From a virus, in IMG/VR virus record IMGVR_UViG_3300020457_001453, positions 1-22,862 of that record: DNA of 22,862 nucleotides, one strand, 5' to 3'. How positions within the stretch are numbered: position 1 is the stretch's first letter; each line of letters starts with the position of its first letter. The position numbers and the translations under genes are program-made. Under the pieces are notes generated by a model. The model searched no databases. It had not been told where the DNA came from and saw only the letters and a list, made by a program, of their open reading frames with translations. Of this stretch, positions 3,937 through 22,862 are shown piece by piece.

Positions 3937-3944
3937 TATAAATA
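3937..3944 (+). promoter_or_regulatory. Perfect T4-type late promoter box (TATAAATA)
   Basis: An exact copy of the T4 late -10 element read by the phage late sigma factor (gp55 type). It lies in the 81-base gap 3888-3968, and the ATG of the next small gene is 25 bases downstream, giving an expected leader of about 18-20 bases. It would drive the three tiny genes at 3969-4376 and the larger gene at 4348. No rho-independent terminator for the upstream gene is seen in the gap. Confidence 0.65.
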
Positions 3945-6258: not shown

Positions 6259-6263
6259 TTTAC

Positions 6264-6764: not shown

Positions 6765-6771
6765 ACAAAAC

Positions 6772-6800
6772 TGTACACGCTTCATGTATTTAGATATAAT
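6772..6800 (+). promoter_or_regulatory. Sigma70-like promoter before talC
   Basis: TGTACA (6772-6777, four of six to TTGACA), 17 bases, then a perfect TATAAT (6795-6800). Transcription would start near 6807, sixteen bases before the ATG at 6823. This is a host sigma-type (early or middle) promoter and the only one I see for the long rightward operon, since no gap of note exists from here to the right edge. It overlaps the leftward late box, so the two directions may be used at different times. Confidence 0.6.
6787..6794 (-). promoter_or_regulatory. Late-like promoter box for the leftward operon
   Basis: On the minus strand the box reads TCTAAATA, seven of eight to TATAAATA. It lies 22 bases before the ATG at 6764, the same geometry as the boxes at 3382 and 3937. 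Its position directly before the ATG at 6785 makes that longer start unlikely if this promoter is used. Confidence 0.4.
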
Positions 6801-6822
6801 ACTAAGTAAAATTACATACATA

Positions 6823-7500
6823 ATGGAAAACTCAGTCACTCCAATGAAGATCTTTCTCGATACAGCCGATACCGAGATAATCAATAAGCACTTTGCCACT
6901 GGACTTATTGATGGCGTAACAACAAATCCTACACTAATCCGTAAAAGTGGAAGAGATCCTGAAGATGTTTATCAGGAACTAATAGACTTAGGTCTAGGTG
7001 ATATAAGCATGGAAGTTGGTGGTAATGCTATACAAATGCTAGAAGAAGGACGTAGGTTATATGCTAAGTTCGGTCATCACTCTACTATCAAAGTACCATG
7101 CACACCTGAAGGTCTATGGGTATGTAAGGAATTACATAGAGATCATATCGATGTTAATGTTACTTTGATCTTTGATGCTGCACAAGCAATACTTGCTGCT
7201 AAAGCAGGTGCTAAGTATGTGTCTCCTTTCGTTGGTAGATTGGATGATAACTCTATTACTGGATTGGATTTGATCACAGATATCAAACACATATATACAG
7301 TACAGAGAGTACATGAGACCCAAATATTATCAGCATCAATCCGCTATGTGAATAGCGTTTCTCAATCATTTGCTAATGGTGCAGACATAGTTACTATGCC
7401 TCCAGCAGTTTTTGAAAAAATGTACAACCATGTATTGACTGATAAGGGTCTAGAAATCTTTAACAAAGATCTTGAAGTTATAGCAAATGAGAATCATTGA
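6823..7500 (+). CDS. talC: Transaldolase, short TalC/FSA type
   Basis: Transfers a dihydroxyacetone unit between sugar phosphates in the pentose phosphate pathway. Cyanophage TalC is known to push host carbon toward NADPH and pentoses for phage DNA synthesis during infection. It has the typical short MipB/TalC length: 225 residues from the ATG at 6823, or 218 from the ATG at 6844, which gives the classical MKIFLDTADTEII start. Counting from 6844, the catalytic Asp is residue 6 in FLDTA and the Schiff-base Lys is 83 in TIKVPCTPEG; GVTTNPTLI and NVTLIFDAAQA are family hallmarks. The promoter position (start near 6807) allows either start. First gene of the rightward operon. Confidence 0.95.
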   Translation: MENSVTPMKIFLDTADTEIINKHFATGLIDGVTTNPTLIRKSGRDPEDVYQELIDLGLGDISMEVGGNAIQMLEEGRRLYAKFGHHSTIKVPCTPEGLWVCKELHRDHIDVNVTLIFDAAQAILAAKAGAKYVSPFVGRLDDNSITGLDLITDIKHIYTVQRVHETQILSASIRYVNSVSQSFANGADIVTMPPAVFEKMYNHVLTDKGLEIFNKDLEVIANENH

Positions 7501-8011
7501 AAATGCAATCTCTGATGAGTTGATTGATGCATGTATTGAAGAAATTCAAGGCAAAAAGAAGCAAGATGTATGGGGTATAAGTAAGTGGAAGTGGGGAGTA
7601 CCACTTCAACAAGCATATCGTCTTACTGCTTGTCTATCTAATAAACCTGATGTACATAACTACAATCAGATTAGGAATGAGACAACTAGGCATTTTGAAA
7701 CACCAGCATCCAATATTAATTACCATGTCTGGTTACCTGGATCTGGTATAGGTTGGCATGATGATGATAATTATAGTTATGGTGCTACCTTATATCTAAA
7801 TGATTGGCCACCTGAGAAGGGAGCAATCTTTATGTGGAAGGAAAAATATACTGGGGAATTAAATTGTCTAAACCCCAAGAGAAATCTTCTTGTAATAAAT
7901 GATTGTGGTGAGGATCATGCAGTAAGTCCTGTATTAGCAGGTGAAGATTTGGGACTTAGAATGTCAATTCAAATGTTTTCAGTTAAGATAAATCCAGACT
8001 ATCATGAATGA
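7487..8011 (+). CDS. 2OG-Fe(II) oxygenase family protein
   Basis: A 174-residue protein predicted to be a 2-oxoglutarate and iron-dependent oxygenase. The iron ligands would be His91 and Asp92 or Asp93 (GIGWHDDDNYSYG), and His144 (EDHAVSP); Arg158 (LRMSIQMF) would bind 2-oxoglutarate. This is the compact double-stranded beta-helix type abundant in cyanophages, whose substrates are largely unknown. It overlaps talC by 14 bases, so the two are translated together. Hydroxylation of a protein, a sugar or a nucleic acid base are all open possibilities. Confidence 0.8.
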   Translation: MRIIENAISDELIDACIEEIQGKKKQDVWGISKWKWGVPLQQAYRLTACLSNKPDVHNYNQIRNETTRHFETPASNINYHVWLPGSGIGWHDDDNYSYGATLYLNDWPPEKGAIFMWKEKYTGELNCLNPKRNLLVINDCGEDHAVSPVLAGEDLGLRMSIQMFSVKINPDYHE

Positions 8012-8237
8012 GATAAAAATTAAATGTTTACTATGTGGTAAGATAATAGATCATGGAACTTGTGGCTGTCCTAATTCTGCAAGAATTACTAAGGATGGAT
8101 ACAGTGCTATGGATATGAATAAGGTGATAGAAGTAAAATCTAAACCTATCAAATATAAACCCAGTGATTCTGATATAGCTTTCCAAGAAAGCCGTAGCAG
8201 AAGGAAGGTACGTAAACTTGACTTTGAAGTACGTTGA
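8004..8237 (+). CDS. Small zinc-ribbon-like protein (77 aa)
   Basis: An N-terminal CLLCGKIIDHGTCGC (Cys8, 11, 20, 22) can bind one zinc, followed by a basic tail (QESRSRRKVRKLDFEVR). A nucleic acid or protein-binding role is possible but not shown. It overlaps the oxygenase before it by eight bases and the one after it by 20 bases. Confidence 0.6.
   Translation: MNEIKIKCLLCGKIIDHGTCGCPNSARITKDGYSAMDMNKVIEVKSKPIKYKPSDSDIAFQESRSRRKVRKLDFEVR
8201..8208 (+). promoter_or_regulatory. Ribosome binding site deciding a TTG start
   Basis: AAGGAAGG nine bases before the TTG at 8218. It supports TTG as the initiation codon of the next gene, which has no suitable ATG before its conserved part. Confidence 0.5.
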
Positions 8238-8760
8238 ATCAATCCATATCGGTACTGATTGGACTGATGATTATGAATCTATTTGCAATAAACTTGTTAC
8301 TCAACATAAGTGGAGTCACAAGAGATATAAGTCTGGGAAATATGTATTTGATATTGCTCCGAATAATATAAGATATTTTCAACCATTATTTGATAGAGTT
8401 TACCATGAGGTAAAGGGGTTATATCCTCGTGCAGATATACCAGAGAAGTTTGCTTCTGCAATATGGGCATACGTATCTAATAAAGACAGGAGTGTTACCT
8501 TCCTTCACAATCATATGAAGGAGAAAATTCAGAGAGATATATCCACTGTTTACTATCTTAAGAAGCCAGAAGGTAGTGGTGATATAATGTTTTTAGTTGA
8601 CGGTGAAAAGGTTATACATACACCAGAGGAAGGAGATCTATTAGTATTTCCAGCCACTATGTACCACGCTCCAATGCCAACAGAGTGTGATGAATATCGT
8701 ATTGCTATTAACATAAACGTTATTACTAATAACGATTATTCAAACTTCTTGACACGGTAA
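8218..8760 (+). CDS. 2OG-Fe(II) oxygenase-like protein (TTG start)
   Basis: A 180-residue protein initiated at TTG, supported by AAGGAAGG upstream. The likely iron site is His97 and/or His99 (TFLHNHMKE) with His150 (ATMYHAPMP), and Arg161 (EYRIAININ) for 2-oxoglutarate. The strands WAYVSN, STVYYLKKPEGSGDIMF and GDLLVFPATMYHAP follow the order of the phage 2OG oxygenase family with a divergent first motif (H-x-H or H-x-N instead of H-x-D), so activity is less certain than for the gene at 7487. Confidence 0.65.
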   Translation: MTLKYVESIHIGTDWTDDYESICNKLVTQHKWSHKRYKSGKYVFDIAPNNIRYFQPLFDRVYHEVKGLYPRADIPEKFASAIWAYVSNKDRSVTFLHNHMKEKIQRDISTVYYLKKPEGSGDIMFLVDGEKVIHTPEEGDLLVFPATMYHAPMPTECDEYRIAININVITNNDYSNFLTR

Positions 8761-9027
8761 GTGGAGTATTCTATAATAACGACGTACTCTAAGAAGACCA
8801 TGACACGAGGTGTATTCCTGTCTAAATTCAAACTTGATTCAAAAACTTTAGTCGATGCAGTAGAAGAGAAAATTGATCTGGAGTATGATCATCCAGATCT
8901 ATACCAAAAGGTTTACCAATTCTACAAAGACCAAGATGTTTATTTCTATGATGATAAAGATAAGGACTATAACATCATATTAGAAAGTTTAGAATATGAT
9001 TTACTTGATTCGGAGTTACTAAGGTGA
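8761..9027 (+). CDS. Small acidic unknown protein (GTG start)
   Basis: The frame starts with GTG directly after the previous TAA, giving 88 residues beginning MEYSIITTYSKKTMTRG; an ATG at 8800 would give 75. The protein is rich in Asp, Tyr and Phe (YFYDDKDKDYN), with no membrane segment or known domain. It ends in a GTGA overlap with the isomerase gene. Function is unknown. Confidence 0.5.
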   Translation: MEYSIITTYSKKTMTRGVFLSKFKLDSKTLVDAVEEKIDLEYDHPDLYQKVYQFYKDQDVYFYDDKDKDYNIILESLEYDLLDSELLR

Positions 9028-9407
9028 GTTTTCAGAGAGATCGTCCATGGGGATGGTACAAATGCATATGTCGATCAGAGACCTATGCAGTGAAAAAAAT
9101 TTATGTTGCACCTAACCAAAGGTTGTCACTACAATATCATCAACACAGGACTGAGGACTGGGTGGTAGTTGAAGGTAGTGGTACTATTACCCAAGGTAAT
9201 CTTGATTCACCTGCTAAAGTGGGTGATACATTTTTTATTGGTATAGAACAACGTCACCGTTTAGCAGGTGGTCCTGATGGTATTGTTATCATTGAGGTTC
9301 AACGTGGTATATGTAAAGAAGATGATATTATAAGACTCGAAGATGATTATGGTAGAGTCCAAACCCGTAGTCTTTATGCCTCCCTCAATGAGTACGGAAC
9401 AGAATGA
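9024..9407 (+). CDS. Type II phosphomannose isomerase (cupin)
   Basis: Predicted to interconvert fructose-6-phosphate and mannose-6-phosphate. The 127 residues correspond to the isomerase domain found at the end of ManC/AlgA-type bifunctional enzymes, here standing alone without the GDP-mannose pyrophosphorylase part. Visible are RPWGWYK (7-13), the cupin metal site RLSLQYHQHRTEDWVVVEG (His39, His41, Glu44), GDTFFIGIEQRHRL (His78) and the closing EVQRG and IIRLEDDYGR. The GTG start lies in a GTGA overlap with the previous stop, and the end overlaps the next gene by ATGA. With the phosphomannomutase at 1714 it would supply mannose-1-phosphate. Confidence 0.88.
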   Translation: MSFQRDRPWGWYKCICRSETYAVKKIYVAPNQRLSLQYHQHRTEDWVVVEGSGTITQGNLDSPAKVGDTFFIGIEQRHRLAGGPDGIVIIEVQRGICKEDDIIRLEDDYGRVQTRSLYASLNEYGTE

Positions 9408-10351
9408 CTTATATTGTTACAGGTGGAGCTGGTTTTATCGGTAGTAATTTTCTTCATTACTTGAAGAATGAGACTGAAATAGATGATCAAGTTATTGTTA
9501 TAGACAATCTATCTTATGCTGCTGACTTGGAGTATGTTCCCAAGAACAAGCAGTTTATTTTTGAGTGGTGTGATATCTCTAATGAGGATCATGTCACTTA
9601 TATTTTTGATAAGTATAAACCAAAAAAGGTTTTTCATTTTGCTGCTGAAAGTCATGTTGATAGATCTATAAAAAATTACAGACCGTTTCTAGAAACAAAT
9701 GTTGTTGGCACAATCAACCTACTTAATGCTAGTCTAAAGCATGAGGTTGAAAAGTTTCATCATGTTTCTACTGATGAGGTGTATGGATCCCTCGAATATG
9801 ATGACGTTGAATTATTTAAGGAGACTACTCCCTATGACCCAAGAAATCCCTACTCGGCAAGCAAAGCAGCGTCCGACTATTTTGTCAAAACATGGCACAA
9901 CACTTACGGTATACCTTACCTTATTACTAACTGTTCTAATAACTATGGTCCTCATCAACATGTAGAGAAGTTGATACCATTGGTTGTAAGTAACGCATTA
10001 CAGGATAAGGTAACATATATGCATCAAGGTGGTCATCAAGTAAGGGATTGGTTATATGTTTATGATCATTGTGCTGCTATCTGGGAACTAGAATGGCAGG
10101 GAATTATTAATAATCATTTCAATATAGGTGGTGGATGTGAGCTGAGGAATATAGATGTAACTAAGATGATATTATCATTGATGAAGAAACCATATACACT
10201 CATTGGTATTAACGATGAGCGTCCAGGTATTGATAAAAGATACGGTATGGACTATAATAAGATGACTCAGTGGACTACGTGGAAACCATTCACTGATTTT
10301 GATCTTGGATTGAGGGCAACTGTAACATGGTACCTAGACCGTTTAACATGA
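9404..10351 (+). CDS. dTDP-glucose 4,6-dehydratase-like (RmlB family)
   Basis: An NAD-dependent extended short-chain dehydrogenase making NDP-4-keto-6-deoxyglucose. The 315 residues show the Rossmann motif VTGGAGFIGSN (5-15), FAAESHVDRSI (79-89), STDEVYG with Thr123-Asp124-Glu125, YSASKAASD (Tyr150, Lys154), NCSNNYGPHQHVEKLIP and RDWLYVYDH. The Asp-Glu pair after Thr marks the dehydratase rather than an epimerase. The sequence order is that of RmlB, so a dTDP sugar is the first guess; a CDP sugar cannot be excluded because an RfbH-like enzyme follows two genes on. The product could be the substrate for that enzyme. Start and end are both ATGA overlaps. Confidence 0.9.
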   Translation: MTYIVTGGAGFIGSNFLHYLKNETEIDDQVIVIDNLSYAADLEYVPKNKQFIFEWCDISNEDHVTYIFDKYKPKKVFHFAAESHVDRSIKNYRPFLETNVVGTINLLNASLKHEVEKFHHVSTDEVYGSLEYDDVELFKETTPYDPRNPYSASKAASDYFVKTWHNTYGIPYLITNCSNNYGPHQHVEKLIPLVVSNALQDKVTYMHQGGHQVRDWLYVYDHCAAIWELEWQGIINNHFNIGGGCELRNIDVTKMILSLMKKPYTLIGINDERPGIDKRYGMDYNKMTQWTTWKPFTDFDLGLRATVTWYLDRLT

Positions 10352-11163
10352 TCTCATTGTATGGAGCTGGATTTGTCGGTGGACATTTCGCTAAGATGTA
10401 CCATGAGTTTGTAGATGTACAAGGTAGGGATGAACGTAATCCTAAACATAAAGATATACTTTATTTCATATCAACTGTGGACAATTACAATGTCCATGAT
10501 AAAATAACACTTGACGTTGACACTAATTTACATGTCCTTTGCGAGGTTCTTGACCATTGTAGGTCAGAAGACATTACCTTCAACTTCATTTCCAGTTGGT
10601 TTGTCTATGGAAAAGGAGACACACCAGCATCAGAAACTTCACCATGCAACCCACAAGGGTTCTACTCAATCACAAAGTACTGTGCAGAAAATCTTATTAG
10701 GTCTTTTGCACAGACCACTGGGATGAAGTATAGGATCCTTAGACTATGTAATGTCTTGGGACCTGGAGATCATAAAGCAAACCGTAAAAAGAATGCTATA
10801 CAGTGGATGGTAAATGAATTGAAAGCAGATCGGGATGTGAAGTTATACGATAACGGATCTCATTGTCGTGATGTTATGCATGTTGATGATGTATCTCGTG
10901 CTATCTTTATGATCCTTGAAAAAGGACAACGGAATGAGATCTATAATATAGGATCAGGTAAACCAACTTCTGTTTCTGAGTTGATGTTATTAGCAAAACA
11001 ATACTCAGAATCAAAGGGTGAACTTTTGAACATGGATCCACCTGATTTCCATAAGAATGTTCAGACACAAAACTTCTGGATGGATGTTACTAAACTAAAA
11101 GAGTTGGGACATCAACAATTCCTAAACAATGAATACATTATCAGAGACTTATGTACAGCATAA
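10348..11163 (+). CDS. NAD-dependent sugar epimerase/reductase (SDR)
   Basis: A 271-residue extended SDR. I chose the ATG at 10348, which overlaps the RmlB-like stop as ATGA; an ATG at 10327 would add seven residues. Visible are the N-terminal cofactor motif LYGAGFVGGHF (4-14), a catalytic Ser in FISSWFVYG (80-88), YSITK (Tyr106, Lys110), RLCNVLGPGD and a substrate-side VMHVDDVSRA. The N-terminal domain is shorter than in typical epimerases. The gene lies between a 4,6-dehydratase and a 3-dehydratase, so a 4-keto reductase or epimerase of a deoxysugar is a likely role. Exact substrate is unknown. Confidence 0.8.
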   Translation: MISLYGAGFVGGHFAKMYHEFVDVQGRDERNPKHKDILYFISTVDNYNVHDKITLDVDTNLHVLCEVLDHCRSEDITFNFISSWFVYGKGDTPASETSPCNPQGFYSITKYCAENLIRSFAQTTGMKYRILRLCNVLGPGDHKANRKKNAIQWMVNELKADRDVKLYDNGSHCRDVMHVDDVSRAIFMILEKGQRNEIYNIGSGKPTSVSELMLLAKQYSESKGELLNMDPPDFHKNVQTQNFWMDVTKLKELGHQQFLNNEYIIRDLCTA

Positions 11164-12455
11164 AGGATCAAATAGGTTCTTTTATTATGGCTTTGGAATC
11201 GGAAGGGTATGATCTCTTTCCTTTCTTACCTAATAAAAATTGGAAACCAGGTGATCAGATATTATATTCTGGACCTTACTGGGATGATCAAGAACCGATA
11301 GCTGCTATGGCAGCATTACTTACTGGTAAGTGGTTACCTGCTGGTGAGAATGTAAATAAGTTTGAACGTGGATTTGGTAAGAGATTTGAGCATGACTATT
11401 CTGTCATGGTAAACAGTGGATCATCTGCTAATCTAGTGATGATTGCTGCACTGAAGAAGTACTTTGATTGGAAAGATGGTGATGAGATATTAGTATGTGC
11501 TTGTGGTTTTCCTACTACTATCAATCCTATTATTCAGAATGGATTGAAGCCAGTCTTTGTTGATATAGATTATAATGATTTGAATTGGAACCTTGATCAA
11601 TTAGAATCAAAGATAACAGATAGAACTGTTGCAGCATTTAGTTCACCCGTCCTTGGAAATCCCTATGACTTTGATAAGTTCCTCGACATTATTGATAGGC
11701 ATGGGTTGAAGTATATTGCTGACAACTGTGACTCCCTCGGTAGCAAGTGGAGAGGTGATCTTCTTACCAAACGTGCCGTCGCATCGTCTTGTTCTTTTTA
11801 TCCAGCTCATCATATTACTACTATCGAAGGAGGAATGGTCTCCTCTGACATCGAAGAGGTGGTTCAGATCGCTAGATCTTACGCCTGGTGGGGTCGTGGT
11901 TGCTACTGTGTAGGAGCCCAAAATAAATTGCCCAACGGTGTTTGTGGAACTAGATTTGACCGTTGGTTGGAGGGGTATGATAAGGATGTCGATCATAAGT
12001 ATGTCTTTGGAGTCCAAGGATACAATCTCAAGCCTGCCGATTTGCAGGGGGCGATTGGGTTGGTGCAACTGACTAAGCAAACTGAGATACATCACGTCCG
12101 TCGTCTCAACAAAAGTGCGATGACTCAAATCTTCTCTCAGATTCCTGGTTGCAGGGTTATCGAAGAGAAAGAACATGCTGAGACCTCATGGTTTGGGTGT
12201 CCTATTATCTATGAGGACGGTAAACACCACCTCGTAAAATACCTAGAGTCAAAAGGTATACAAACTAGAAACTATTTTGCTGGTAATATTTTGATGCACC
12301 CTGCATACAAACATATAGAACCAGCTTCTAACTATCCTGAAGCCTCAAAGGTGTTAGATAACGTATTCTTTGTAGGAACATCTCCCGTAATAACGATGCC
12401 TATGCTAGACTACATAGATGAGGTTGTTCAATCTTACATAAAGGAAATTAAATGA
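11151..12455 (+). CDS. RfbH/E1-type NDP-4-keto-6-deoxyhexose 3-dehydratase
   Basis: A member of the DegT/DnrJ/EryC1 fold, 434 residues. Where aminotransferases have a PLP-binding Lys it has SFYPAHHITTIEGG with His220, the hallmark of the PMP-dependent 3-dehydratases (E1/AscC/DdhC, RfbH, SpnQ) that remove the C3 hydroxyl to give 3,6-dideoxyhexoses. As I recall, E1 binds a [2Fe-2S] cluster by Cys193, 251, 253 and 261 (C-x57-C-x1-C-x7-C). Here Cys193, 251 and 253 are at the same positions, with the fourth at 265 (x11 instead of x7). Cluster and radical chemistry are therefore probably kept. These enzymes need electrons; no E3-type reductase is in the window, so host or phage ferredoxin may serve. 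It overlaps the SDR by 13 bases. Confidence 0.88.
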   Translation: MYSIKDQIGSFIMALESEGYDLFPFLPNKNWKPGDQILYSGPYWDDQEPIAAMAALLTGKWLPAGENVNKFERGFGKRFEHDYSVMVNSGSSANLVMIAALKKYFDWKDGDEILVCACGFPTTINPIIQNGLKPVFVDIDYNDLNWNLDQLESKITDRTVAAFSSPVLGNPYDFDKFLDIIDRHGLKYIADNCDSLGSKWRGDLLTKRAVASSCSFYPAHHITTIEGGMVSSDIEEVVQIARSYAWWGRGCYCVGAQNKLPNGVCGTRFDRWLEGYDKDVDHKYVFGVQGYNLKPADLQGAIGLVQLTKQTEIHHVRRLNKSAMTQIFSQIPGCRVIEEKEHAETSWFGCPIIYEDGKHHLVKYLESKGIQTRNYFAGNILMHPAYKHIEPASNYPEASKVLDNVFFVGTSPVITMPMLDYIDEVVQSYIKEIK

Positions 12456-13591
12456 GCAAAAAGACTGCATTAGTTTTAGGAGCAGGTGGATTCATCGGTT
12501 CTCATATGGTAAAGAGACTTAAGTCTGAAGGTTACTGGGTCAGAGGTGTTGATTTAAAGCATCCTGATTTTTCAGAGACAGAAGCAGATGAGTTTCTTAC
12601 AGGTGATCTAGCTGAAGCAGACTTCATGAAAAGAGTAATTGCTTTTAGAGGAGAGCAAGGAAATTTTTATGCTAGTGTTCCGTTTCAATATGAAACTCCT
12701 TTTGATGAGATCTATCAGTTCGCTGCTGACATGGGTGGTGCAGGGTTTATTTTCACAGGTGAAAATGATGCCGAAATAATGCACAACTCAGTGAGTATTA
12801 ATATAAACCTATTACGTGAACAACTTAAGATGAATGCTAGTTATCCACGTCTTCTGGTTCCCGTACCAGATAACGTTGGTAAGACAAAAATTTTCTACAG
12901 TTCATCTGCATGTATGTACCCAGAGTACAATCAACTTGATCCAAACAACCCCGACTGCCGTGAATCATCAGCCTATCCAGCCCAACCAGACTCCGAGTAC
13001 GGATGGGAAAAATTATTCTCCGAGAGGTTATATCTCACTTATAATCGTAATTATAACATTGATGTTAGGATCGCTCGTTACCATAACATCTTCGGACCAG
13101 AAGGAACCTGGCATGGAGGACGAGAAAAAGCTCCAGCAGCAATCTGTAGAAAGGTTGCCTATGCCGACCAATCCAATGGCGAAGTAGAAGTATGGGGTGA
13201 TGGTAAACATACTAGATCATTCCTTTACATTGATGAATGTATTGAAGCAACAAGAAGACTAATGGAATCAGACTTCTTAGGACCTATCAACATTGGTTCA
13301 GAAGAAATGGTTACTGTTGATGAACTTGTAGATACTGCTGCAAGAGTTGCTAAGAAAGACATTGTAAAGAAATATCTTGATGTTCCTCACACTGGTGTTC
13401 GTGGTAGAAATTCTAACAATGATCTCATTCGTGAGAAACTTGGTTGGGATTATGAACAGACACTTGAAGAAGGAATAAAAAAGACTTATAATTGGATCAT
13501 GGGACAGATCGCTAAAGAAATGTTCCCTGTTGAAGCTGATAAAGATATCACAGGTAAAAAGTATCTCGCCTATGGTAACTGCAACAAATGA
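12452..13591 (+). CDS. GDP-mannose 3,5-epimerase (plant GME-like)
   Basis: Predicted to convert GDP-D-mannose to GDP-L-galactose, and GDP-L-gulose as a side product. The 379 residues match plant GME in length and motifs: LGAGGFIGSHM (9-19), QFAADMGGAGFIFTG (89-103), FYSSSACMYPEYNQL (148-162), EYGWEKLFSE (Tyr183, Lys187), RYHNIFGPEGTWHGGREKAP and WGDGKHTRSFLYIDEC. Plant GME uses Cys145, Tyr174, Lys178 and Lys217; the matching residues here (Cys154, Tyr183, Lys187, Lys226) keep the same spacing. In plants this makes ascorbate and cell-wall L-galactose; in a phage a role in glycan building is likelier. The last 40 residues extend beyond the SDR core. Confidence 0.92.
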   Translation: MSKKTALVLGAGGFIGSHMVKRLKSEGYWVRGVDLKHPDFSETEADEFLTGDLAEADFMKRVIAFRGEQGNFYASVPFQYETPFDEIYQFAADMGGAGFIFTGENDAEIMHNSVSININLLREQLKMNASYPRLLVPVPDNVGKTKIFYSSSACMYPEYNQLDPNNPDCRESSAYPAQPDSEYGWEKLFSERLYLTYNRNYNIDVRIARYHNIFGPEGTWHGGREKAPAAICRKVAYADQSNGEVEVWGDGKHTRSFLYIDECIEATRRLMESDFLGPINIGSEEMVTVDELVDTAARVAKKDIVKKYLDVPHTGVRGRNSNNDLIREKLGWDYEQTLEEGIKKTYNWIMGQIAKEMFPVEADKDITGKKYLAYGNCNK

Positions 13592-14244
13592 ACACAACTT
13601 ATGATTATGAAAAGGATACCCTAAAGCATCCTTTCAGTGGACACACAAAAGTATTTCGTAATTACTCACAAGCATATCAAGACATGTTTGCCTTGTCTAT
13701 GTTGAAGGGTAAGAAGAAAGGTAAGTATGTAGAGGTTGGTGCTAATCATCCTCAATCAATGAGTAATACTTTTCTACTTGAGAGTACATTCGAGTGGCGA
13801 GGTTACTCAGTAGAGATTGAGAAGTCTATGTGCGAATTATTCAATGGTGATATGGCAAGACAGAACCATTGTTATGAATCAGATGGTAGGTACTTTGATT
13901 ATTTGAAAGCAATAGAAGGTGAGGGATGGAAGAATAGAGTTGACTATCTTTCATTAGATTGTGAACCACCCAATGTTACCTTTGAAATTCTAAAGAAGTA
14001 TCCTTTAGAAGATTACCCTGCATCTGTTATTACATTTGAACATGATGCATATAAAGATGGTCCTACTATCATGGATCACTCTCGTATATTTTTGAAGGAT
14101 AAAGGTTATCAATTAGTATGTTCTAATGTTTGTAATGGAGGAGCACCGTTTGAAGATTGGTGGGTTGATCCTCGTGTGGTAAATGAAAATATTTGGAAAC
14201 CATTTGAGTGTTCTAATAAGGAGGCACGGAGTATCTTTGTATGA
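13588..14244 (+). CDS. FkbM-type methyltransferase
   Basis: A 218-residue S-adenosylmethionine-dependent methyltransferase of the FkbM type. Visible are SQAYQDMFAL (27-36), the SAM-binding KYVEVGANHP (46-55), NTFLLE...WRGYSVEIE (60-78, with the ribose-binding acidic residue in EIE), SLDCEPPN and VITFEHDAYK. FkbM proteins usually O-methylate sugars or glycolipids, and the position between sugar-nucleotide genes and glycosyltransferases fits methylation of a glycan. ATGA overlaps at both ends. Confidence 0.8.
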   Translation: MNTTYDYEKDTLKHPFSGHTKVFRNYSQAYQDMFALSMLKGKKKGKYVEVGANHPQSMSNTFLLESTFEWRGYSVEIEKSMCELFNGDMARQNHCYESDGRYFDYLKAIEGEGWKNRVDYLSLDCEPPNVTFEILKKYPLEDYPASVITFEHDAYKDGPTIMDHSRIFLKDKGYQLVCSNVCNGGAPFEDWWVDPRVVNENIWKPFECSNKEARSIFV

Positions 14245-15516: not shown

Positions 15517-16370
15517 AAATTTTTGACGTATTCACTTTTTATAATGAGCTTGATCTTCTTGAACTGAGGATGAATATCCTAGGTGATGTGGTAGATCATT
15601 TTGTTATTAACGAAGCAAACATTACTTTCACAGGTAAGAAGAAACCACTTTACTTTGCAGAGAATAGAAAGCGTTTCAAGAAGTGGGAAGATAAAATAAT
15701 ATATCATCTAACTGAAGATGATAACCAGACTTACGAAGCATACTATGAGGGTGTACCTTATCATCGTAGTATGATAGAAGAGAACATAAAAGATTTACCA
15801 TTACATTATCAGAGAGCATGTTTCCATAAGGACTCAGCAATATATGGACTACTTGATCATGCTAAAGATGAGGATCTTATTCTGACTAGCGATGCAGATG
15901 AAATTGCTAATCCAGAATGTATAAAGATTCATAAGAAGTGGTTCAATCCAGACAATCATTATGTACTAACTGGTCCTTTATATTACTACTTCCTCAACGT
16001 ACAATGTGAAGAGCAGTGGATGGGTACAAGAGTCTGTAACTTCAAGACACTGAAGAGTATGAGTGTAGATAAGTTACGTCAGTCACATAAGAATGCATGG
16101 AAGATAGAGAATGCATCATGGCATTGGAGTTTCTTTGGTAATGCTGATACAGTAAGACAGAAGATGGATGCCTATGAACATCAGGAGAATAATAAAGACG
16201 AGTTTAGATCTAGTATGGAAGATCGTATTGAGAATAACTTAGATCCTTATGGTAGAGACTATCTCTATAAACCTATTGTAGTTCCTATTGATGAGACATT
16301 CCCCCAGTATATTAGAAGTCAGAAGAATAGGAAAATGAAAAAGTTCATCAAGCCTTATGAAACTGCTTAG
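15513..16370 (+). CDS. GT17-like glycosyltransferase
   Basis: A 285-residue protein with the typical start of GT17 (beta-1,4-mannosyl-glycoprotein N-acetylglucosaminyltransferase family): KIFDVFTFYNELDLLELRM, then VINEANITFTGKKKPLYF (31-48). The metal-binding motif is LTSDADEI (124-131), followed by YYYFLN and SWHWSFFG. GT17 enzymes add GlcNAc to mannose in eukaryotes, but bacterial and phage relatives have unknown specificity. No membrane segment, so it would act in the cytoplasm. Confidence 0.85.
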   Translation: MKIFDVFTFYNELDLLELRMNILGDVVDHFVINEANITFTGKKKPLYFAENRKRFKKWEDKIIYHLTEDDNQTYEAYYEGVPYHRSMIEENIKDLPLHYQRACFHKDSAIYGLLDHAKDEDLILTSDADEIANPECIKIHKKWFNPDNHYVLTGPLYYYFLNVQCEEQWMGTRVCNFKTLKSMSVDKLRQSHKNAWKIENASWHWSFFGNADTVRQKMDAYEHQENNKDEFRSSMEDRIENNLDPYGRDYLYKPIVVPIDETFPQYIRSQKNRKMKKFIKPYETA

Positions 16371-17271
16371 TGGACCAGCGATAGCAAATCATTGTGATTA
16401 TGATTTCGGAGATCAGGCAGGGTGTTTAGGTGGTGTACCCGATGCCTTCATGGAAGATGCAAATAATAAGAACAAAAATTTTATGAGTATGGTAAAGGGT
16501 CGTGAATGGATGACCCTATTCATTGATAATATACGTTTATATAAAAGACCTATAACATGTAATAACTATGATGATCAGATGAGAGTTGATAATATGATGA
16601 AGAGAGATAATCTACTCAAGTTATGTAAGTCATTACCTGATACTAAGTTTATAATATTTTGTAGTAATGAGGACACACCTATTACAGATGATATAAAAAT
16701 ACCAGATAATGTTAGAGCAATCTTCGCAGCAAATGCTGTAGGGTATAGTGGCAAACTATATCCATTTCCTTATGGTGTACAGAGAGTATTATATAAAGGT
16801 GATGTAAGACAGAAGCAACTTCATATCGCTATGCAAGAGGATTCTAAACCTAAGAAGTTATTGTATATCAATCATTCAGAACATACTAATCTAAGTGAAC
16901 GTGGAAACATAAGAGAACTGTTTAGTGGTAAATCATATGCTACGGTGAGTGAACGTGTATCTTATATTGAGTATGTCAATCAGATAAAGGAACATAAGTT
17001 TATGATATGTCCTGAAGGTAATGCTGTGGATTGCCATAGAAATTGGGAGGTACTATGTCTAAAGAGAGTACCTATTATGAAGAGGAATCCATACTTAGAA
17101 GAGGTTTATAAAGATTATCCTATACTATGGGTTGATGATTATGGTAAGATAAACAAGACGTTATTAGCAGGTCATGATGATTTGTTTATAAGGGCTAGAA
17201 ATTTAGACGATAATCTGCTAGACTTATATTCAGTAATGAATAGGGCAATTCGCTTTGCAAAAAATTCCTGA
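16357..17271 (+). CDS. Exostosin-like glycosyltransferase
   Basis: A 304-residue protein. The C-terminal half has SYIEYVNQIKEHKFMICPEG (202-221), VDCHRNWEVLCLKRVPIM and LEEVYKDYPILWVDDY, the nucleotide-sugar binding signature seen in exostosin-like proteins of bacteria and large viruses: a Ser/Cys-Pro-Glu-Gly loop, an acidic residue before HR, and a Glu in a conserved helix. The N-terminal half is variable and probably binds the acceptor. It overlaps the GT17 gene by 14 bases. Donor and acceptor are unknown. Confidence 0.72.
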   Translation: MKLLSGPAIANHCDYDFGDQAGCLGGVPDAFMEDANNKNKNFMSMVKGREWMTLFIDNIRLYKRPITCNNYDDQMRVDNMMKRDNLLKLCKSLPDTKFIIFCSNEDTPITDDIKIPDNVRAIFAANAVGYSGKLYPFPYGVQRVLYKGDVRQKQLHIAMQEDSKPKKLLYINHSEHTNLSERGNIRELFSGKSYATVSERVSYIEYVNQIKEHKFMICPEGNAVDCHRNWEVLCLKRVPIMKRNPYLEEVYKDYPILWVDDYGKINKTLLAGHDDLFIRARNLDDNLLDLYSVMNRAIRFAKNS

Positions 17272-17926
17272 CGTTACATTGTTGATGCTTGCTGATCTGG
17301 ATATTCCAGATGCTGTTCATGCTGTCAATAAATCCTGTGAAGATATACAATGGGGTGCTGCTAAGTTTCTTAGTAGTAAGGGAAGACCTAAAGGTTTGAA
17401 TCCCAATGTAGATTATGAAGAAGTATATCCTATTCAAAGTATCAATGACTTTAATTTTTATTGTATCTACAATCTAAGAAACCATGTTGAAACTTCTCAC
17501 TCCCTCCTCATCCACCCTGATGGTTATGTTATTCGCCCTTGGTTGTGGGACAATACTTGGCTTGAATACGACTATATCGGTGCACCATGGAGAGATGATC
17601 CCAAGGCATATCTCGATCCTTGGGGCAAGAATCAACGTGTCGGGAACGGAGGATTCTCTCTTAGGAGTAAGAAACTCCTCGACGTACCCAGTAAAGTCAC
17701 AGTCCCTTGGGAAGTAAATGTAGGAAATTTTTACAAGCATATGGATGCTGGACTATATAATGAAGACGGGAACATATGCTGCCACAACAGACACATCTTC
17801 GAGGAACAGGGATGTGTGTATGCTCCCGTCAGTGTGGCGGCTCGTTTCAGTAAAGAAGTAGAGTGTCCAGAACACGAAGGCATTGAGACCTTTGGTTTTC
17901 ATTATCATTTTCAAAGTATACGATGA
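17255..17926 (+). CDS. DUF5672-like putative glycosyltransferase (TTG start)
   Basis: A 223-residue protein. Initiation at TTG 17255 includes the family-like beginning KIPDVTLLMLADLD; an ATG at 17285 would cut it. Visible are HPDGYV (87-92), EYDYIGAPW (104-112) and VGNGGFSLRSKKLL (129-142), the signature of DUF5672 proteins, which occur in capsule and LPS loci and have a GT-A-like fold. An HEGIETFGFHYH motif closes the protein. The middle third (about 17480-17840) has more G+C and C-ending codons than the genes around it. It overlaps the previous gene by 17 bases and the next by ATGA. Confidence 0.78.
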   Translation: MQKIPDVTLLMLADLDIPDAVHAVNKSCEDIQWGAAKFLSSKGRPKGLNPNVDYEEVYPIQSINDFNFYCIYNLRNHVETSHSLLIHPDGYVIRPWLWDNTWLEYDYIGAPWRDDPKAYLDPWGKNQRVGNGGFSLRSKKLLDVPSKVTVPWEVNVGNFYKHMDAGLYNEDGNICCHNRHIFEEQGCVYAPVSVAARFSKEVECPEHEGIETFGFHYHFQSIR

Positions 17927-18711
17927 AGACAGCACATTATTATCCCCTATGGTGGAACCCTTGGGTTGATGATCCTCAACAATATGATAAGCAAGTCAGT
18001 ATTTCTATTGATAACTTAGCTTGCAACGAAGAAGCAGACTATAAGATATTATTTTTAGCAGAACCATATTCTATTTTACCTACAGTTACAGAGGGTGCTC
18101 TTCGGGGTGCAATGAAGTTTGATAAGATCTATACATTTACTCAAAAGATATTAGAACATTATCCACAAGCAGAATTATTTGAGTGGGGATCTAGTTGGTT
18201 AGATTTTACTGATCTAAAACTAATGAAAGGTAACAATGTTACTTTTGTCACCAGTAATAAGAACCAAACTGTTGGTCATAAAATGAGGTTGGAAATATAT
18301 GATCTATTGAAAGGTGTTGATGTTTCTAATGGATTACAATACTATAGTCATATATCTCCACCCTTTCATCAAAGAAGGAATGATTTCTTTGAGACTGCAA
18401 AGTTTCATATTGCTGTAGAAAATTCTAGTCAGATAAATTATTTTACTGAAAAGGTTATTGATTGCTTTGCATCTAAAACTATTCCAGTGTACTATGGATG
18501 TCCTAACCTAGGTGACTGGTTCAATATGGATGGTGTTATTCAGTTTGAAGATATTCATAATTTAGAATTGATATTGAAACATCTTGATGCTGATCAGTAT
18601 GAACGTAGGAGGAAAGCTGTAGAGGAAAACTATGAGACTGCTAAACTTTTCCATAGTAGTAATGATGTTGTTCCTAGATTGACTAAGAAGATAAGTGAGG
18701 TAGTCAAATGA
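17923..18711 (+). CDS. GT10-like alpha-1,3-fucosyltransferase
   Basis: A 262-residue protein with the GT10 C-terminal signature FHIAVENSSQINYFTEKVID (161-180) and TIPVYYGCPNLGDWF (186-200), which bind the GDP moiety of the donor. The N-terminal acceptor domain is short. The family transfers L-fucose to GlcNAc or related sugars, and some fucosyltransferases accept GDP-L-galactose. As no GDP-fucose synthesis gene is visible but a GDP-mannose 3,5-epimerase is, L-galactose is a reasonable alternative donor sugar. Confidence 0.88.
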   Translation: MKTAHYYPLWWNPWVDDPQQYDKQVSISIDNLACNEEADYKILFLAEPYSILPTVTEGALRGAMKFDKIYTFTQKILEHYPQAELFEWGSSWLDFTDLKLMKGNNVTFVTSNKNQTVGHKMRLEIYDLLKGVDVSNGLQYYSHISPPFHQRRNDFFETAKFHIAVENSSQINYFTEKVIDCFASKTIPVYYGCPNLGDWFNMDGVIQFEDIHNLELILKHLDADQYERRRKAVEENYETAKLFHSSNDVVPRLTKKISEVVK

Positions 18712-19397
18712 AAGTAAGTTATTGTATCCCTACTCATGATGGTAACATGAGATGTCAACAGTATTTGTTTGATATTTTTCATGCATTAGAACAACAAGAT
18801 GATAAGAATTTTAACGTTTGGATATCAGATCATAGTAAATCTGATAAGGTACTAAAAGTATGTCAGGAGTATGCAGATGTTTTTGAAATCAATTATGTTA
18901 AGAATACAAATAGCTTGGGCAACATTTCTGCTAATAGTAATCATGCATTACGCAACGCAGACGGGGATATCCTAAAGGTATTATTTTCTGATGACTTTAT
19001 TCTTACTAGAACATTAAATTCAGAATTACAAAAAGCATTTAGTAATGATGAAGTTAGTTGGGCAGTCACTGGGTTTGCTCATACATTAGATAATGGACGG
19101 ACACATTATAATCCTAAGGTACCTGTCTGGAATGATAGGTTATTAGAAGGTGTAAATACATTAAGTTCTCCTTCTATACTTGCTATTCGTAATGGTATTG
19201 GTGAGTATTTTGATGAAGATCTTACCATGCTTATGGATTGTGATATGTTCTATAGACTCTATAAGGATCATGGTAAACCTGCTGTATTGAAGGACTTTCA
19301 TATCTCTAACAGAGAACATCCTAATCAAACACAGAGACAACATGAAGATCTCTTACCTAAAGAGGTTGAATACTTGAAAAATAAACACAAATCATGA
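18708..19397 (+). CDS. GT2 family glycosyltransferase
   Basis: A 229-residue GT-A protein: VSYCIPTHDGN (3-13), WISDHSKSD (38-46, in place of the usual DDGS), GNISANSNHALRNADGD (71-87) and VLFSDDF (91-97, metal-binding acidic pair). DCDMFYRL later would orient the acceptor. No membrane segment. ATGA overlaps with both neighbours place it firmly in the operon. Confidence 0.85.
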   Translation: MKVSYCIPTHDGNMRCQQYLFDIFHALEQQDDKNFNVWISDHSKSDKVLKVCQEYADVFEINYVKNTNSLGNISANSNHALRNADGDILKVLFSDDFILTRTLNSELQKAFSNDEVSWAVTGFAHTLDNGRTHYNPKVPVWNDRLLEGVNTLSSPSILAIRNGIGEYFDEDLTMLMDCDMFYRLYKDHGKPAVLKDFHISNREHPNQTQRQHEDLLPKEVEYLKNKHKS

Positions 19398-20185
19398 CAA
19401 TAGGCTTCAATCATTTAGGGAGACATGGTAGACTAGGGAACCAGATGTTCCAGTATGCTGGACTTCGTGGTATCGCTGCACATCGTGGCTTTGATTTTGC
19501 AATTCCACCTAGTGATTTCAAAGATGAATGGAATGACCATCAACTCTTTGAAGCATTCAAGTTAGTTGGGTTGACAAACATCCAAGAAATACCTGGCCCG
19601 TATGTTCAAGAACAAACCTTTCACTTTGATAAGAAACTCTTTGATAATATGCCTGACGGACATAATGTCTATGGGTATCTACAAAGTACTAAATGGTTTG
19701 AACATATTGAGAAGGAAATTCGTGAGGATTTCCAGTTCAAAAATGACATACATAAACCATGTCATGATATGATATCTTCTGTAGAAGATCCCATAGCATT
19801 ACACGTTAGACGTGGCGATTACATAACTAATTGTGATAATCATCCACCATGTTCCAAGGACTATTATGACTCTGCTCTTTCTAGATTTGATAGTGATCGG
19901 TCTGTTATTGTTTTCTCCGATGATCCCAAGTGGTGTGGGGAAACTTTTCAAGAAGATCGTTTCTTGATATCTGAAGGTGGTGACAACCTTGCAGATTTAT
20001 GTATGATGTCTATGTGTACTGACTTTATCATTGCCAACTCCTCTTTCTCTTGGTGGGGATCTTGGCTAAGCGAAAATCCAAATAAAAAAATTGTCGCTCC
20101 ATCTAAATGGTTTGGCACGGGTTACACCAAGAACCATATCACAGCAGATTTGTATTGCGACAACTGGGAGGTTATTAATGACTAA
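19394..20185 (+). CDS. GT11 alpha-1,2-fucosyltransferase
   Basis: A 263-residue protein with all GT11 motifs: GRHGRLGNQMFQYA (9-22), ALHVRRGDYI (135-144) and FIIANSSFSWWGSWLS (211-226). The family links L-fucose alpha-1,2 to galactose. It is close to normal length. In this operon it stands with a GT10 and a second HxRxGD protein, giving three putative users of a GDP-L-hexose. Confidence 0.92.
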   Translation: MTIGFNHLGRHGRLGNQMFQYAGLRGIAAHRGFDFAIPPSDFKDEWNDHQLFEAFKLVGLTNIQEIPGPYVQEQTFHFDKKLFDNMPDGHNVYGYLQSTKWFEHIEKEIREDFQFKNDIHKPCHDMISSVEDPIALHVRRGDYITNCDNHPPCSKDYYDSALSRFDSDRSVIVFSDDPKWCGETFQEDRFLISEGGDNLADLCMMSMCTDFIIANSSFSWWGSWLSENPNKKIVAPSKWFGTGYTKNHITADLYCDNWEVIND

Positions 20186-21143
20186 CACTATTGTTCAAGA
20201 AGGAGTAGAGATTCCTGATCTTGGAATGTATGAAGATTTACAGATTCAACCTTTGAATTCTTGGGATCTTACTAAAACTACTTTTATTATTCCATTGAGG
20301 ATTGAAAGTAGAGATAGGATGAGGAACATTGTATGTACATTAGTATATCTGTTACGTAACTTTGATACTCAGATAATAATCAAGGAGCATGACATGGAGT
20401 CTGTCTTCTTGAAGCAGGTTGTTCCTATTCTTGATGATTGTGTACCTCCAATCAAGATGCACAACATACATCATATCTTTGAACAGTCTGAAGATGTAGT
20501 GTTCCATAGAACAAGACTACTCAATGACATGTTGATGTTGGTGAAGACACCTGTTGTGTCAGTATATGATTGTGATGTCATGCTCCCAATGAATACTTAT
20601 ATTCAAGCACAGAATGTTATTCTAAAGGGATATGATAACCCTGCAACTCCAGATGCAGCACCTGAACCTATCAAATGTGTTTATCCATATGGGTATGGTG
20701 ATTACCAGTGGCAACTTAGATGTGATGATAATGATATTACTAGATTTATAAATTCAAATTTCAATTTCAATGCTTTCCAAGGTAAAGGAACAGTTTACGA
20801 TGCCAAGTTTGGATTCGTTCAGTTCTTTGATACTAAACATTATCTAAAGCATGGTGCAGAGAATGAAGGGTTTGTATCATATGGTTATGAAGATGATGAA
20901 AGATATAATAGATTCAATACTATAGGTGGTGTACTAAGAATCAATGAACCTATCTTCCACTTAGAACATAAGAGAACACCTAACTCATGGTTCAACAATC
21001 CTCATATAGAATCTAACAGAGCATTGTGGGAGAAGCTAAGGACTAAGAGTAAGGAAGGTTTCATTGAATATTATAAAAATCCTGAGTACCTAAAGGTACG
21101 TGGGGTTGTTGATGGTGAGCTTCCAGATGACGGACAGGAATAA
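20178..21143 (+). CDS. Glycosyltransferase, galactosyltransferase-like (GT2/GT7 type)
   Basis: A 321-residue protein. The ATG at 20178, with GGGAGG at 20168-20173, is preferred over an in-frame ATG at 20091 that lies inside the GT11 gene. Visible are FIIPLRIESRDRMRN (36-50), the DxD-type SVYDCDVML (128-136) and GFVSYGYEDDERYNRF (231-246), which resembles the WGWGxEDD acceptor/metal motif of beta-1,4-galactosyltransferases (Glyco_transf_7C). It ends in HLEHKR, a likely metal-binding His region. Confidence 0.82.
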   Translation: MTNTIVQEGVEIPDLGMYEDLQIQPLNSWDLTKTTFIIPLRIESRDRMRNIVCTLVYLLRNFDTQIIIKEHDMESVFLKQVVPILDDCVPPIKMHNIHHIFEQSEDVVFHRTRLLNDMLMLVKTPVVSVYDCDVMLPMNTYIQAQNVILKGYDNPATPDAAPEPIKCVYPYGYGDYQWQLRCDDNDITRFINSNFNFNAFQGKGTVYDAKFGFVQFFDTKHYLKHGAENEGFVSYGYEDDERYNRFNTIGGVLRINEPIFHLEHKRTPNSWFNNPHIESNRALWEKLRTKSKEGFIEYYKNPEYLKVRGVVDGELPDDGQE

Positions 21144-21948
21144 ATCTCTTTATAAGTTAGAAGGGTTCCCTAATGTTCTCTGGATAAATCTTGACAGGGT
21201 TCCAGAGAGAAAGAAATATATGGAGGAGCAATTCTCCTACTGGGGTATAGATAAACACCATAGAATTTCTGGTGTTGATGGAGATGAGTACGAAGAATAT
21301 CTAAAGGGATCTGTTCCTCATAATATGAATAAAGGTGAGATAGCATGTGTTATGTCACATCTAAATGCTTTGAAGTATTTTGTTGAGGAGACAGACCTTG
21401 ATGAGATAATGATCATGGAAGATGATGTAGATCTATCTACAGTAAAGTATTGGCCATTTACATGGAAGGAAGTTCGTAAGCGTGTTCCAATAAATTTTGA
21501 TTGTTTACAGTTGACTATTATAAATCCTAATGGTATAACTTTAAAACTACATCATAGATTTATCAATGACTTTTCTGCTGCTTGTTATCTTATTACTCGT
21601 CATCATGCAACTAAGTGCCTCAGGTTACATAGGAGGAAAGGACAATGGAAACTCGACCAAAACATCAGACCAAGAGCAGTCTCGGAAGACTTGATACTTG
21701 ATAGTGGTAAGAGTTATTCAACACCACTGTTCAACTATAGATTAGACATGGGTTCTGCTATACATGAAGAACATATAGATATATTTCACAAAGGAAGTAA
21801 CAACGCTCTCAAAGATTTTTGGGAACGTGAAGCCATCGACATTCCACTTGAACAAATTATGGAATTAGATGAATACTGTGGTAGAATACCACCACAGGTT
21901 TATATCAACCAAGCACTGAAACAAAATGACGGAACAGCAGACACCTAA
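21127..21948 (+). CDS. GT25 family glycosyltransferase (LPS type)
   Basis: A 273-residue protein. I chose the ATG at 21127, since the earlier GTG at 21100 adds a stretch with no family likeness. Motifs are the GT25 start WINLDRVPERKKYMEEQF (19-36), HRISGVDGDE, GEIACVMSHLNALK (70-83) and IMEDDVDL (96-103, metal site). GT25 includes LPS beta-galactosyltransferases of the LgtB/LpsA group and collagen galactosyltransferases. It overlaps the previous gene by 17 bases and the next by 23. Confidence 0.88.
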   Translation: MTDRNKSLYKLEGFPNVLWINLDRVPERKKYMEEQFSYWGIDKHHRISGVDGDEYEEYLKGSVPHNMNKGEIACVMSHLNALKYFVEETDLDEIMIMEDDVDLSTVKYWPFTWKEVRKRVPINFDCLQLTIINPNGITLKLHHRFINDFSAACYLITRHHATKCLRLHRRKGQWKLDQNIRPRAVSEDLILDSGKSYSTPLFNYRLDMGSAIHEEHIDIFHKGSNNALKDFWEREAIDIPLEQIMELDEYCGRIPPQVYINQALKQNDGTADT

Positions 21949-22657
21949 GTATGAAGGCATACAATTTTATGATCACATTGGTGTACTAGATAATTTTGCT
22001 ACCAATGAATTTTGTGATTCTCTTATAGATCTATTTGAATTCTGGTATACTAAGAAGTACTTTAAGAATGAACGATCTGATCAAAATAAAGTTACATCTA
22101 TAGATGGTCATGATTTTACGTTAGATCATTTCAATGATGGTCAATCACAGTTTCCTCAAGGTGGAATGGGTAGAAAGGATCATCAATTATATCTTGAGAT
22201 CTGTGACTGTACTATGACGGCAGAAGTTAATAAGGTTATTGGTTTAGCATTTGAACAGTATGTAAAAGAGTATAAAGGATTGGTGTCTGATGCAGATCCA
22301 GTATCATCATGGACAGTCAAGCTACAAAGAACTGATCCTGGTGGTGGGTATCATGTATGGCATTGTGAAAATGGTAACTTCTTATATCGTGACAGGGTTC
22401 TTACATGGATGATATATCTAAATGATATTCCACTTGAATCTGGTGGTGGTACTGACTTCTATTATCAGAAGAGAACATTTCATCCTAAGAAAGGTACTGT
22501 AGTTCTTTGGCCAGCAGCATATACTCACATGCATCGTGGAGCATTTCTAACAGGAGAACAGTCTAAGTACATTGCAACTGGTTGGTTTATAAGAGAACCT
22601 GGTAACGTAACTGAAAAGGAAATTAGTGACAAGAGACAGATGAAATTAGAGGAATGA
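21926..22657 (+). CDS. 2OG-Fe(II) oxygenase, prolyl-hydroxylase-like
   Basis: A 243-residue protein. The core is TDPGGGYHVWHCENG (136-150, His146-x-Glu148 with Glu in place of the more usual Asp), VLTWMIYLNDIPLESGGGTD (158-177) and VVLWPAAYTHMHRGAF (192-207, distal His201 or His203), with Lys214 possibly binding 2-oxoglutarate. This is the layout of P4H-like phage oxygenases. Of the four in the window it is the longest. It ends in an ATGA overlap with the last, partial gene. Confidence 0.8.
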   Translation: MTEQQTPKYEGIQFYDHIGVLDNFATNEFCDSLIDLFEFWYTKKYFKNERSDQNKVTSIDGHDFTLDHFNDGQSQFPQGGMGRKDHQLYLEICDCTMTAEVNKVIGLAFEQYVKEYKGLVSDADPVSSWTVKLQRTDPGGGYHVWHCENGNFLYRDRVLTWMIYLNDIPLESGGGTDFYYQKRTFHPKKGTVVLWPAAYTHMHRGAFLTGEQSKYIATGWFIREPGNVTEKEISDKRQMKLEE

Positions 22658-22862
22658 TATTATGGACAGAACAGTTTGTCCTGAAGGATAGTACTGTCAG
22701 AAATTTGAAGAGTAAGTATAGAGACCCTTACTTTTTGAAGGGTGATCCTGGTTGGGGTCAACATTATACAGGTTACCATAGGAATCCTAACAACACTGCT
22801 AACACAGTGGATGGTAACTTTGTAGATAAAGAACTACTTCAACTTTACATACCAAAACTGAA
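22654..22862 (+). CDS. Unknown protein, 3' end outside window
   Basis: Starts in the ATGA at 22654-22657 and is open to the right edge, giving 69 complete codons. The visible part begins MILWTEQFVLKDSTVRNL and contains KGDPGWGQHYTGYHRNP. I do not recognise it from this part. It continues the same operon past the window. Confidence 0.6.
   Translation, partial: MILWTEQFVLKDSTVRNLKSKYRDPYFLKGDPGWGQHYTGYHRNPNNTANTVDGNFVDKELLQLYIPKL

Follow-up and report, generated by a model that had tools for sequence, protein, structure and literature searches.

The 22,862-base stretch analysed here (the window), from the IMG/VR virus record IMGVR_UViG_3300020457_001453, is a fragment of a T4-like cyanophage: it carries talC, a gene for a RusA-like resolvase and members of cyanophage PHROGs, and its relatives at the DNA level are cyanophages. 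From position 6823 to the end of the window, 23 plus-strand genes follow one another with zero intergenic space, the last being cut. They form a glycan operon of about 16 kb, as an initial annotation had claimed, whose order recurs in 88 loci and which encodes both sugar synthesis and sugar transfer. Only ten of the 22 junctions, rather than nearly all, are 4-base overlaps (NTGA); eleven are overlaps of 8–95 bases, counted from open reading frames (ORFs) as called, some with uncertain starts, and one is abutting. The initial annotation had overlooked talC, five 2-oxoglutarate (2OG)-Fe(II) oxygenases (one of them cut) and a phosphomannomutase upstream. An identical contig (0 mismatches over a 1740-base overlap) extends the operon by about 4.3 kb beyond the window, with the complete fifth 2OG-oxygenase-like gene and then five tandem TOD1/MUCI70-like genes. 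At L020 (2074–6034), the five tandem TOD1/MUCI70-like (glycosyltransferase-like) genes 3' of the cassette are paralogs with an ITNGY start motif; in two other loci (L035 and L056), one of them encodes a protein of about 825 amino acids.

The gene order is conserved among uncultured relatives to a degree far beyond chance. Through relatives of three genes, 95 IMG/VR loci were gathered, 80 of them via the GT25 glycosyltransferase gene and 15 via the gene at 14241; the conservation of these two genes is therefore selection-biased, and that of the others is not. After removal of near-identical loci, 88 marine viral loci remained; of 631 steps between neighbouring genes in these, 610 follow the order of the window and 21 do not. 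The genes for phosphomannose isomerase (PMI), RmlB, the SDR, the RfbH-type enzyme, GDP-mannose 3,5-epimerase (GME), GT2, GT11 and the GT7C-like protein are never missing from a locus that extends across their position; GT17, the FkbM-like gene and oxygenase c are variably present. All 17 genes tested are under purifying selection, with median dN/dS values of 0.04–0.21 (pairwise counts of the Nei–Gojobori type on moderately diverged pairs, without phylogenetic fit). Given both the strict gene order and the selection on the genes, the cluster can plausibly be read only as having a selected function. A 192-kb record preserves the window order from RusA through oxygenase d, followed by psbA and psbD, so that the run sits between talC and psbA/psbD. 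Within the annotated collection, the closest record is AG-345-D19. It stems from a plate sorted through the extracellular gate (PMC6122165), and its glycan genes therefore probably lay inside a virus particle.

Family matches bore out all five sugar-nucleotide enzymes of the initial annotation, the 4,6-dehydratase being of the dTDP-glucose type. RmlB passes its NCBIfam equivalog cut-off and matches PDB 1g1a (E 9e-82). The next dehydratase scores 339 against the NCBIfam RfbH equivalog, whose cut-off of 423 is not reached, and for this reason it is called RfbH-type rather than RfbH; aligned to 3bcx (CDP-4-keto-6-deoxyglucose-3-dehydrase), it keeps the histidine of the pyridoxal-phosphate site (replacing lysine) and all four iron–sulfur cysteines. 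The SDR is likely its partner, since the two are neighbours in a host-family genome too. In GME, the catalytic Cys and Lys align with those of the plant enzyme 2c59 (Cys145 and Lys217) and are invariant in 14 phage orthologs. Monofunctional type II PMI enzymes have been reported from cyanophages (PMC9602691). The upstream protein at 1714–2442 has its PDB matches among phosphomannomutases (5ue7 the best, E 1.1e-21) and probably feeds GDP-mannose; its gene lies outside the operon, and co-transcription is only putative. This eukaryote-type phosphomannomutase in a cyanophage matches phrog_29277, a PHROG without assigned function. No genes for GDP-fucose synthesis were found in the run.

Nine genes of the run are glycosyltransferase-like, and each could be given a family (GT114, GT17, DUF5672, GT10, GT2, GT11, GT7C-like, GT25 and fucosyltransferase-like), in agreement with the nine genes of at least seven families first counted. 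Two proteins without a Pfam name, encoded at 16357 and 14241, were resolved through alignments of their relatives and AlphaFold models. The first is a GT114 homolog of A075L, the enzyme of the chlorella virus PBCV-1 that adds a distal xylose to the capsid glycan (PMC11571054), and the comparison with chlorella viruses made by the initial annotation is thereby strengthened. Its structural model (pLDDT 73) matches A075L with a Foldseek E of 3.6e-9 and Z 15.4, against Z 10.4 for the next fold. The A075L donor-site residues Asn148, Arg158, Arg208 and Asn202, with roles described by PMC11571054, correspond to N172, R182, R228 and N222, given a 2-residue construct offset derived from the alignment, and are invariant in 23 orthologs; the stretch aligned by phmmer leaves out the catalytic base Asp73. 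The protein at 14241–15011 matches FUT8, POFUT1 and NodZ (Z up to 10.7) and the heptosyltransferases WaaC and WaaF (Z 9.3–9.9). In the GT7C-like protein, aligned from 20178 (the listed ORF starts at TTG 20091), DxD and GYEDD motifs are invariant, and a comparison with PDB profiles gave no convincing match. The last transferase of the main run is GT25 (T4-GC 266), as is usual in cyanophage glycan clusters.

Among the modifying enzymes, oxygenase d matches the prolyl 4-hydroxylase (P4H) structures 3itq and 5hv0 (E 4e-5) and is the neighbour of GT25 in almost every relative long enough to include it. The methyltransferase initially annotated as FkbM is a tentative assignment: 5 of 16 orthologs match PF05050 (best E 0.003), the window protein itself does not, no convincing match was found among PDB profiles, and hhalign gave no match between the FkbM-like set and the RN05-S protein annotated as FkbM.

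A single promoter had been proposed for the operon, and this does not hold: besides a weaker site ahead of talC, a consensus sigma-70 site (12 of 12 positions) lies inside the run and ends 22 bases 5' of the likely ATG (8800) of the gene preceding that of PMI. Five lineages whose flanking DNA is 36–67% identical have a site of at least 11 of 12 matches at the same place, at a background frequency of about 0.09 such sites per kb; the conserved site was found by inspection, so that its chance probability is not formal. Since it is conserved in place across such diverged lineages, the glycan genes own an early-type promoter distinct from that of talC. Window-wide sigma-70 and terminator scans gave no more promoter-like sites than shuffled sequences, and of the scanned sites only the conserved one is used here. 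Copies of the late-promoter core ATAAATA are strongly under-represented in the window (1 vs about 10 expected); the single copy, at 3938–3944, lies in the intergenic gap ahead of the ORF at 4348–5187, with none in the operon and none ahead of talC. In the 192-kb relative, an ATAAATA motif stands directly 5' of the conserved sigma-70 site, a layout reminiscent of the combined early and late promoters reported for the middle genes of cyanophages (PMC2984593).

Table 1. Genes and candidate promoters of the glycan run and its upstream phosphomannomutase (window coordinates).
Feature	Position	Strand	Support or remark
Eukaryote-type phosphomannomutase, HAD fold, FDVDGT motif	1714..2442	+	PF03332 E 1.6e-18
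Sigma-70-like candidate promoter ahead of talC (TGTACA-17-TATAAT)	6772..6800	+	weaker than the 8749 site
TalC transaldolase, typical cyanophage gene, first of run	6823..7500	+	PF00923 E 5e-50; TIGR00875 209 bits, under the 246 cut-off
2OG-Fe(II) oxygenase a	7487..8011	+	PF13640 E 3.5e-6
Small Cys-rich zinc-ribbon-like protein	8004..8237	+	phrog_8074; CxxC pattern
2OG-Fe(II) oxygenase b	8218..8760	+	PF13759 E 1e-8
Internal sigma-70 consensus promoter (TTGACA-17-TATAAT)	8749..8777	+	12/12; conserved in relatives
Small protein phrog_552, directly ahead of the PMI gene	8761..9027	+	likely true start ATG 8800
Monofunctional type II mannose-6-phosphate isomerase (PMI, cupin)	9024..9407	+	PF01050 E 1.1e-24
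dTDP-glucose 4,6-dehydratase (RmlB)	9404..10351	+	TIGR01181 370.6 vs cut-off 365.1
SDR sugar epimerase/reductase	10327..11163	+	PF01370 E 2.7e-34
RfbH-type NDP-4-keto-6-deoxyhexose 3-dehydratase	11151..12455	+	PDB 3bcx E 1.6e-66
GDP-mannose 3,5-epimerase (GME), to GDP-L-galactose/L-gulose	12452..13591	+	plant GME 2c59 E 7.8e-79
FkbM-like methyltransferase (tentative)	13588..14244	+	PF05050 in orthologs
GT-B fucosyltransferase-like protein	14241..15011	+	invariant GRLGN, HxRSGD motifs; AlphaFold pLDDT 90
2OG-Fe(II) oxygenase c (weak)	14995..15516	+	PF13640 E 0.0026, under cut-off
GT17 glycosyltransferase	15513..16370	+	PF04724 E 2e-27
GT114 glycosyltransferase, A075L homolog	16357..17271	+	hmmsearch E 3.3e-24; phmmer E 1.9e-17
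DUF5672 glycosyltransferase-like protein	17255..17926	+	PF18922 E 2.8e-16
GT10 (fucosyltransferase family) protein	17923..18711	+	PF00852 E 6e-9
GT2 glycosyltransferase	18708..19397	+	PF00535 E 1e-10
GT11 (alpha-1,2-fucosyltransferase family) protein	19394..20185	+	PF01531 E 2e-25
GT7C/beta-4-galactosyltransferase-like GT-A protein	20178..21143	+	PF02709 E 0.0045 (weak); phrog_15655
GT25 glycosyltransferase	21100..21948	+	PF01755 E 4e-13; phrog_2835
2OG-Fe(II) oxygenase d, prolyl-4-hydroxylase-like	21926..22657	+	PF13640 E 1e-10
Fifth 2OG-Fe(II)-oxygenase-like gene, truncated at the window end	22654..22860	+	whole in the identical contig

To the left of the run, a PurN glycinamide ribonucleotide formyltransferase (1196–1750) scores above its NCBIfam cut-off, and the ORFs at 4348–5187 (plus strand) and 4931–5992 (minus strand) are convergent with a 257-base overlap. 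Two further minus-strand genes with signal-like starts (DUF6322 and phrog_564) follow, and this arrangement of the region 4348–6899 is found again in loci L196 and L009; minus-strand left neighbours of the run, DUF6322 among them, are common to relatives too. An Rfam search of the window for wcaG-type or other RNA returned nothing up to E 1.

Two further records share parts of the gene set. An unannotated 642-kb uncultured huge phage (LR756502.1, 445659–462543) has RfbH, GT2, DUF5672 and GT17 grouped with two GT114 relatives; these glycan gene families are thus also present in a phage lineage of quite another kind. A contig binned as the Rhodobacteraceae metagenome-assembled genome NAT686 (NZVE01000057.1) holds cyanophage cassette genes; it was rejected as a cellular relative and is probably mis-binned cyanophage DNA.

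Host counterparts were sought in 151 genomes of one family, that of Prochlorococcus. GME occurs in one of them, RfbH orthologs in two (60–66% identity), one adjoining an SDR gene as in the phage, and the DUF5672 family in 22; in the Prochlorococcus single-cell genome AG-349-P01, ManC adjoins GME. GT114 gave two weak matches and GT25 none in the 151 genomes, among which there was no positive control for GT25. As judged by these searches, the donor enzymes have rare host counterparts, whereas GT114 and GT25 do not, and the latter two, being near-absent or not found, are not recent borrowings from the host.

From these gene families a pathway can be proposed, whose sugars, step order and acceptor are inferred. 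Host RNA polymerase would start the run at the internal sigma-70 promoter, and PMI, phosphomannomutase and a host-supplied GDP-mannose pyrophosphorylase would yield GDP-mannose, from which GME would make GDP-L-galactose or GDP-L-gulose. In parallel, RmlB, the RfbH-type 3-dehydratase and the SDR would convert host dTDP-glucose into a 3,6-dideoxyhexose donor, the dTDP linkage being the presumed one. About nine soluble transferases, the FkbM-like methylase and further glycosyltransferase-like proteins would then assemble and cap the chain, so that the conserved operon would build one specific branched oligosaccharide. The pathway and its soluble transferases point to the host cytoplasm as the place of synthesis. 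Leaving the acceptor aside, we consider this scheme highly probable.

The acceptor may be a phage virion protein, with attachment residues possibly hydroxylated by the 2OG oxygenases; the whole pathway with this ending is put forward tentatively. Several observations argue for it. GT114 is homologous to a capsid-glycan xylosyltransferase and nearly absent from the 151 host-family genomes, in which GT25 was not found. The enzymes are soluble: a membrane-type hydrophobic segment is missing from all 23 proteins, and the families assigned in the run include no flippase, polymerase, ligase or initiating transferase. Phage O-antigen conversion, by comparison, works through membrane Gtr proteins. The glycosyltransferases of PBCV-1 are soluble and cytoplasmic (PMC9614988), and the phage run is alike in this respect. 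A P4H-like oxygenase is constantly paired with GT25 in relatives, a tail fibre gene directly follows GT25 in phage S-CAM7, and there are precedents in chloroviruses and mycobacteriophages. Weighing against a virion acceptor, cultured clusters with the same final GT25 contain heptose and other lipopolysaccharide (LPS)-type genes (S-SM2), GME and the SDR–RfbH pair have relatives in host genomes, and the internal promoter is of the early type, with no adjacent late motif in the window (one relative has it). No collagen family was found in eight cassette-bearing records (54–192 kb), the genome behind the window being itself incomplete, nor were any glycoprotein data found for these phages. Furthermore, GT114 is known from bacteria and eukaryotes as well (PMC11571054), so that homology to A075L does not fix the acceptor.

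The host relatives of GME and RfbH keep in play the second acceptor considered by the initial annotation, the host LPS. The oligosaccharide might be placed early in infection on a host glycolipid (LPS core or lipid-linked precursor), the host providing flipping and export, and the altered cell surface would counter co-infecting phages or grazers. This is a real possibility, to be taken nearly as seriously: an early-type promoter suits it, as do donor enzymes related to Prochlorococcus-family genes, with GME beside ManC in AG-349-P01, and the LPS-type genes of cultured relatives. The Pfam name of GT25 is that of an LPS biosynthesis family, and envelope remodelling is the published hypothesis for P-SSM2 (PMC2984593) and S-SCSM1 (PMC9602691). 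However, the run offers no membrane protein, flippase, ligase or initiating enzyme, its GT114 and GT25 are near-absent from host genomes, and a near-fixed transferase set in diverged phages would be an awkward match for the host's surface-gene islands, which are variable (PMC2984593). On balance, it is our judgement that virion proteins are slightly favoured over the host envelope.

The interleaving of glycosyltransferases and 2OG oxygenases also recalls DNA hypermodification, in which the oxygenases would add hydroxyl groups to bases and the transferases would attach sugars there, as in T-even or TET/JBP-type phages. This is very improbable, and was rejected, because the run has no DNA methyltransferase or other base-modifying gene; moreover, its transferase families are oligosaccharide families, and there is no evidence for modification or glycosylation of cyanomyovirus DNA (PMC2984593). 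Non-functional filler for headful packaging, left open for LPS clusters by Sullivan et al. (PMC3037559), has a negligible chance, being refuted by the dN/dS test on the 17 genes and opposed by the conserved order and the promoter footprint.

If the virion reading is extended to its full form, an oligosaccharide specified by the virus and built by a conserved operon of over 20 genes would cover the particles of widespread uncultured T4-like cyanophages, with GT114 and oxygenase-hydroxylated attachment residues taking part. This stronger claim is more doubtful than either acceptor taken by itself; if true, phages would have their own equivalent of the capsid glycosylation of giant viruses. For two decades LPS clusters have been annotated in cyanophages with no function demonstrated, filler still being open in print, and the link of GT114 to a capsid-glycosylating enzyme makes the choice between virion and envelope directly testable. 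Should virion proteins be glycosylated, ideas on how abundant marine viruses adsorb, decay and are recognized would have to be revised.

Clusters of this general kind are already known. That few cyanophages would have so many transferases, as the initial annotation supposed, is contradicted by P-SSM2, S-SM2, S-SSM7 (PMC3037559, PMC2984593), S-SCSM1 and RN05-S, and by the occurrence of the cassette in dozens of marine contigs. The closest known systems are the glycan/LPS clusters of the Synechococcus phages RN05-S, RB11-B, S-B05, S-H68 and S-SCSM1, the last reported to carry mannose-6-phosphate isomerase (MPI), GME, fucosyltransferases and other glycosyltransferases (PMC9602691). Like the window, RN05-S has PMI, RmlB, SDR, GME, RfbH, GT17, GT11, DUF5672, GT25 and talC in one run, but in another order and with RmlC in addition. 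The clusters of P-SSM2, S-SM2 and S-SSM7 likewise belong to T4-like phages, combine sugar-nucleotide and glycosyltransferase genes and end with the same GT25 followed by hli/psbA, whereas their donors differ (heptose type in S-SM2) and their transferases are mostly different.

Beyond cyanophages, PBCV-1 resembles the run in its virus-encoded soluble transferases and its homologous GT114; the homology shown concerns one transferase only, and genes for GDP-fucose synthesis, as noted above, were not found here. Mimivirus L230, a fusion of lysyl hydroxylase and GT25, also sets a 2OG hydroxylase beside GT25, although in the phage the two are separate overlapping genes and the hydroxylase is P4H-like. 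Mycobacteriophage Che8, whose capsid is glycan-coated (PMC11256854), encodes glycosyltransferases too and serves as a precedent only. Cyanophage LPS-type clusters have been known from P-SSM2 onward; GT114 occurs in no cultured phage of the collection. What is new is a conserved and widespread uncultured variant, the evidence for its selection and promoter, and its GT114 member.

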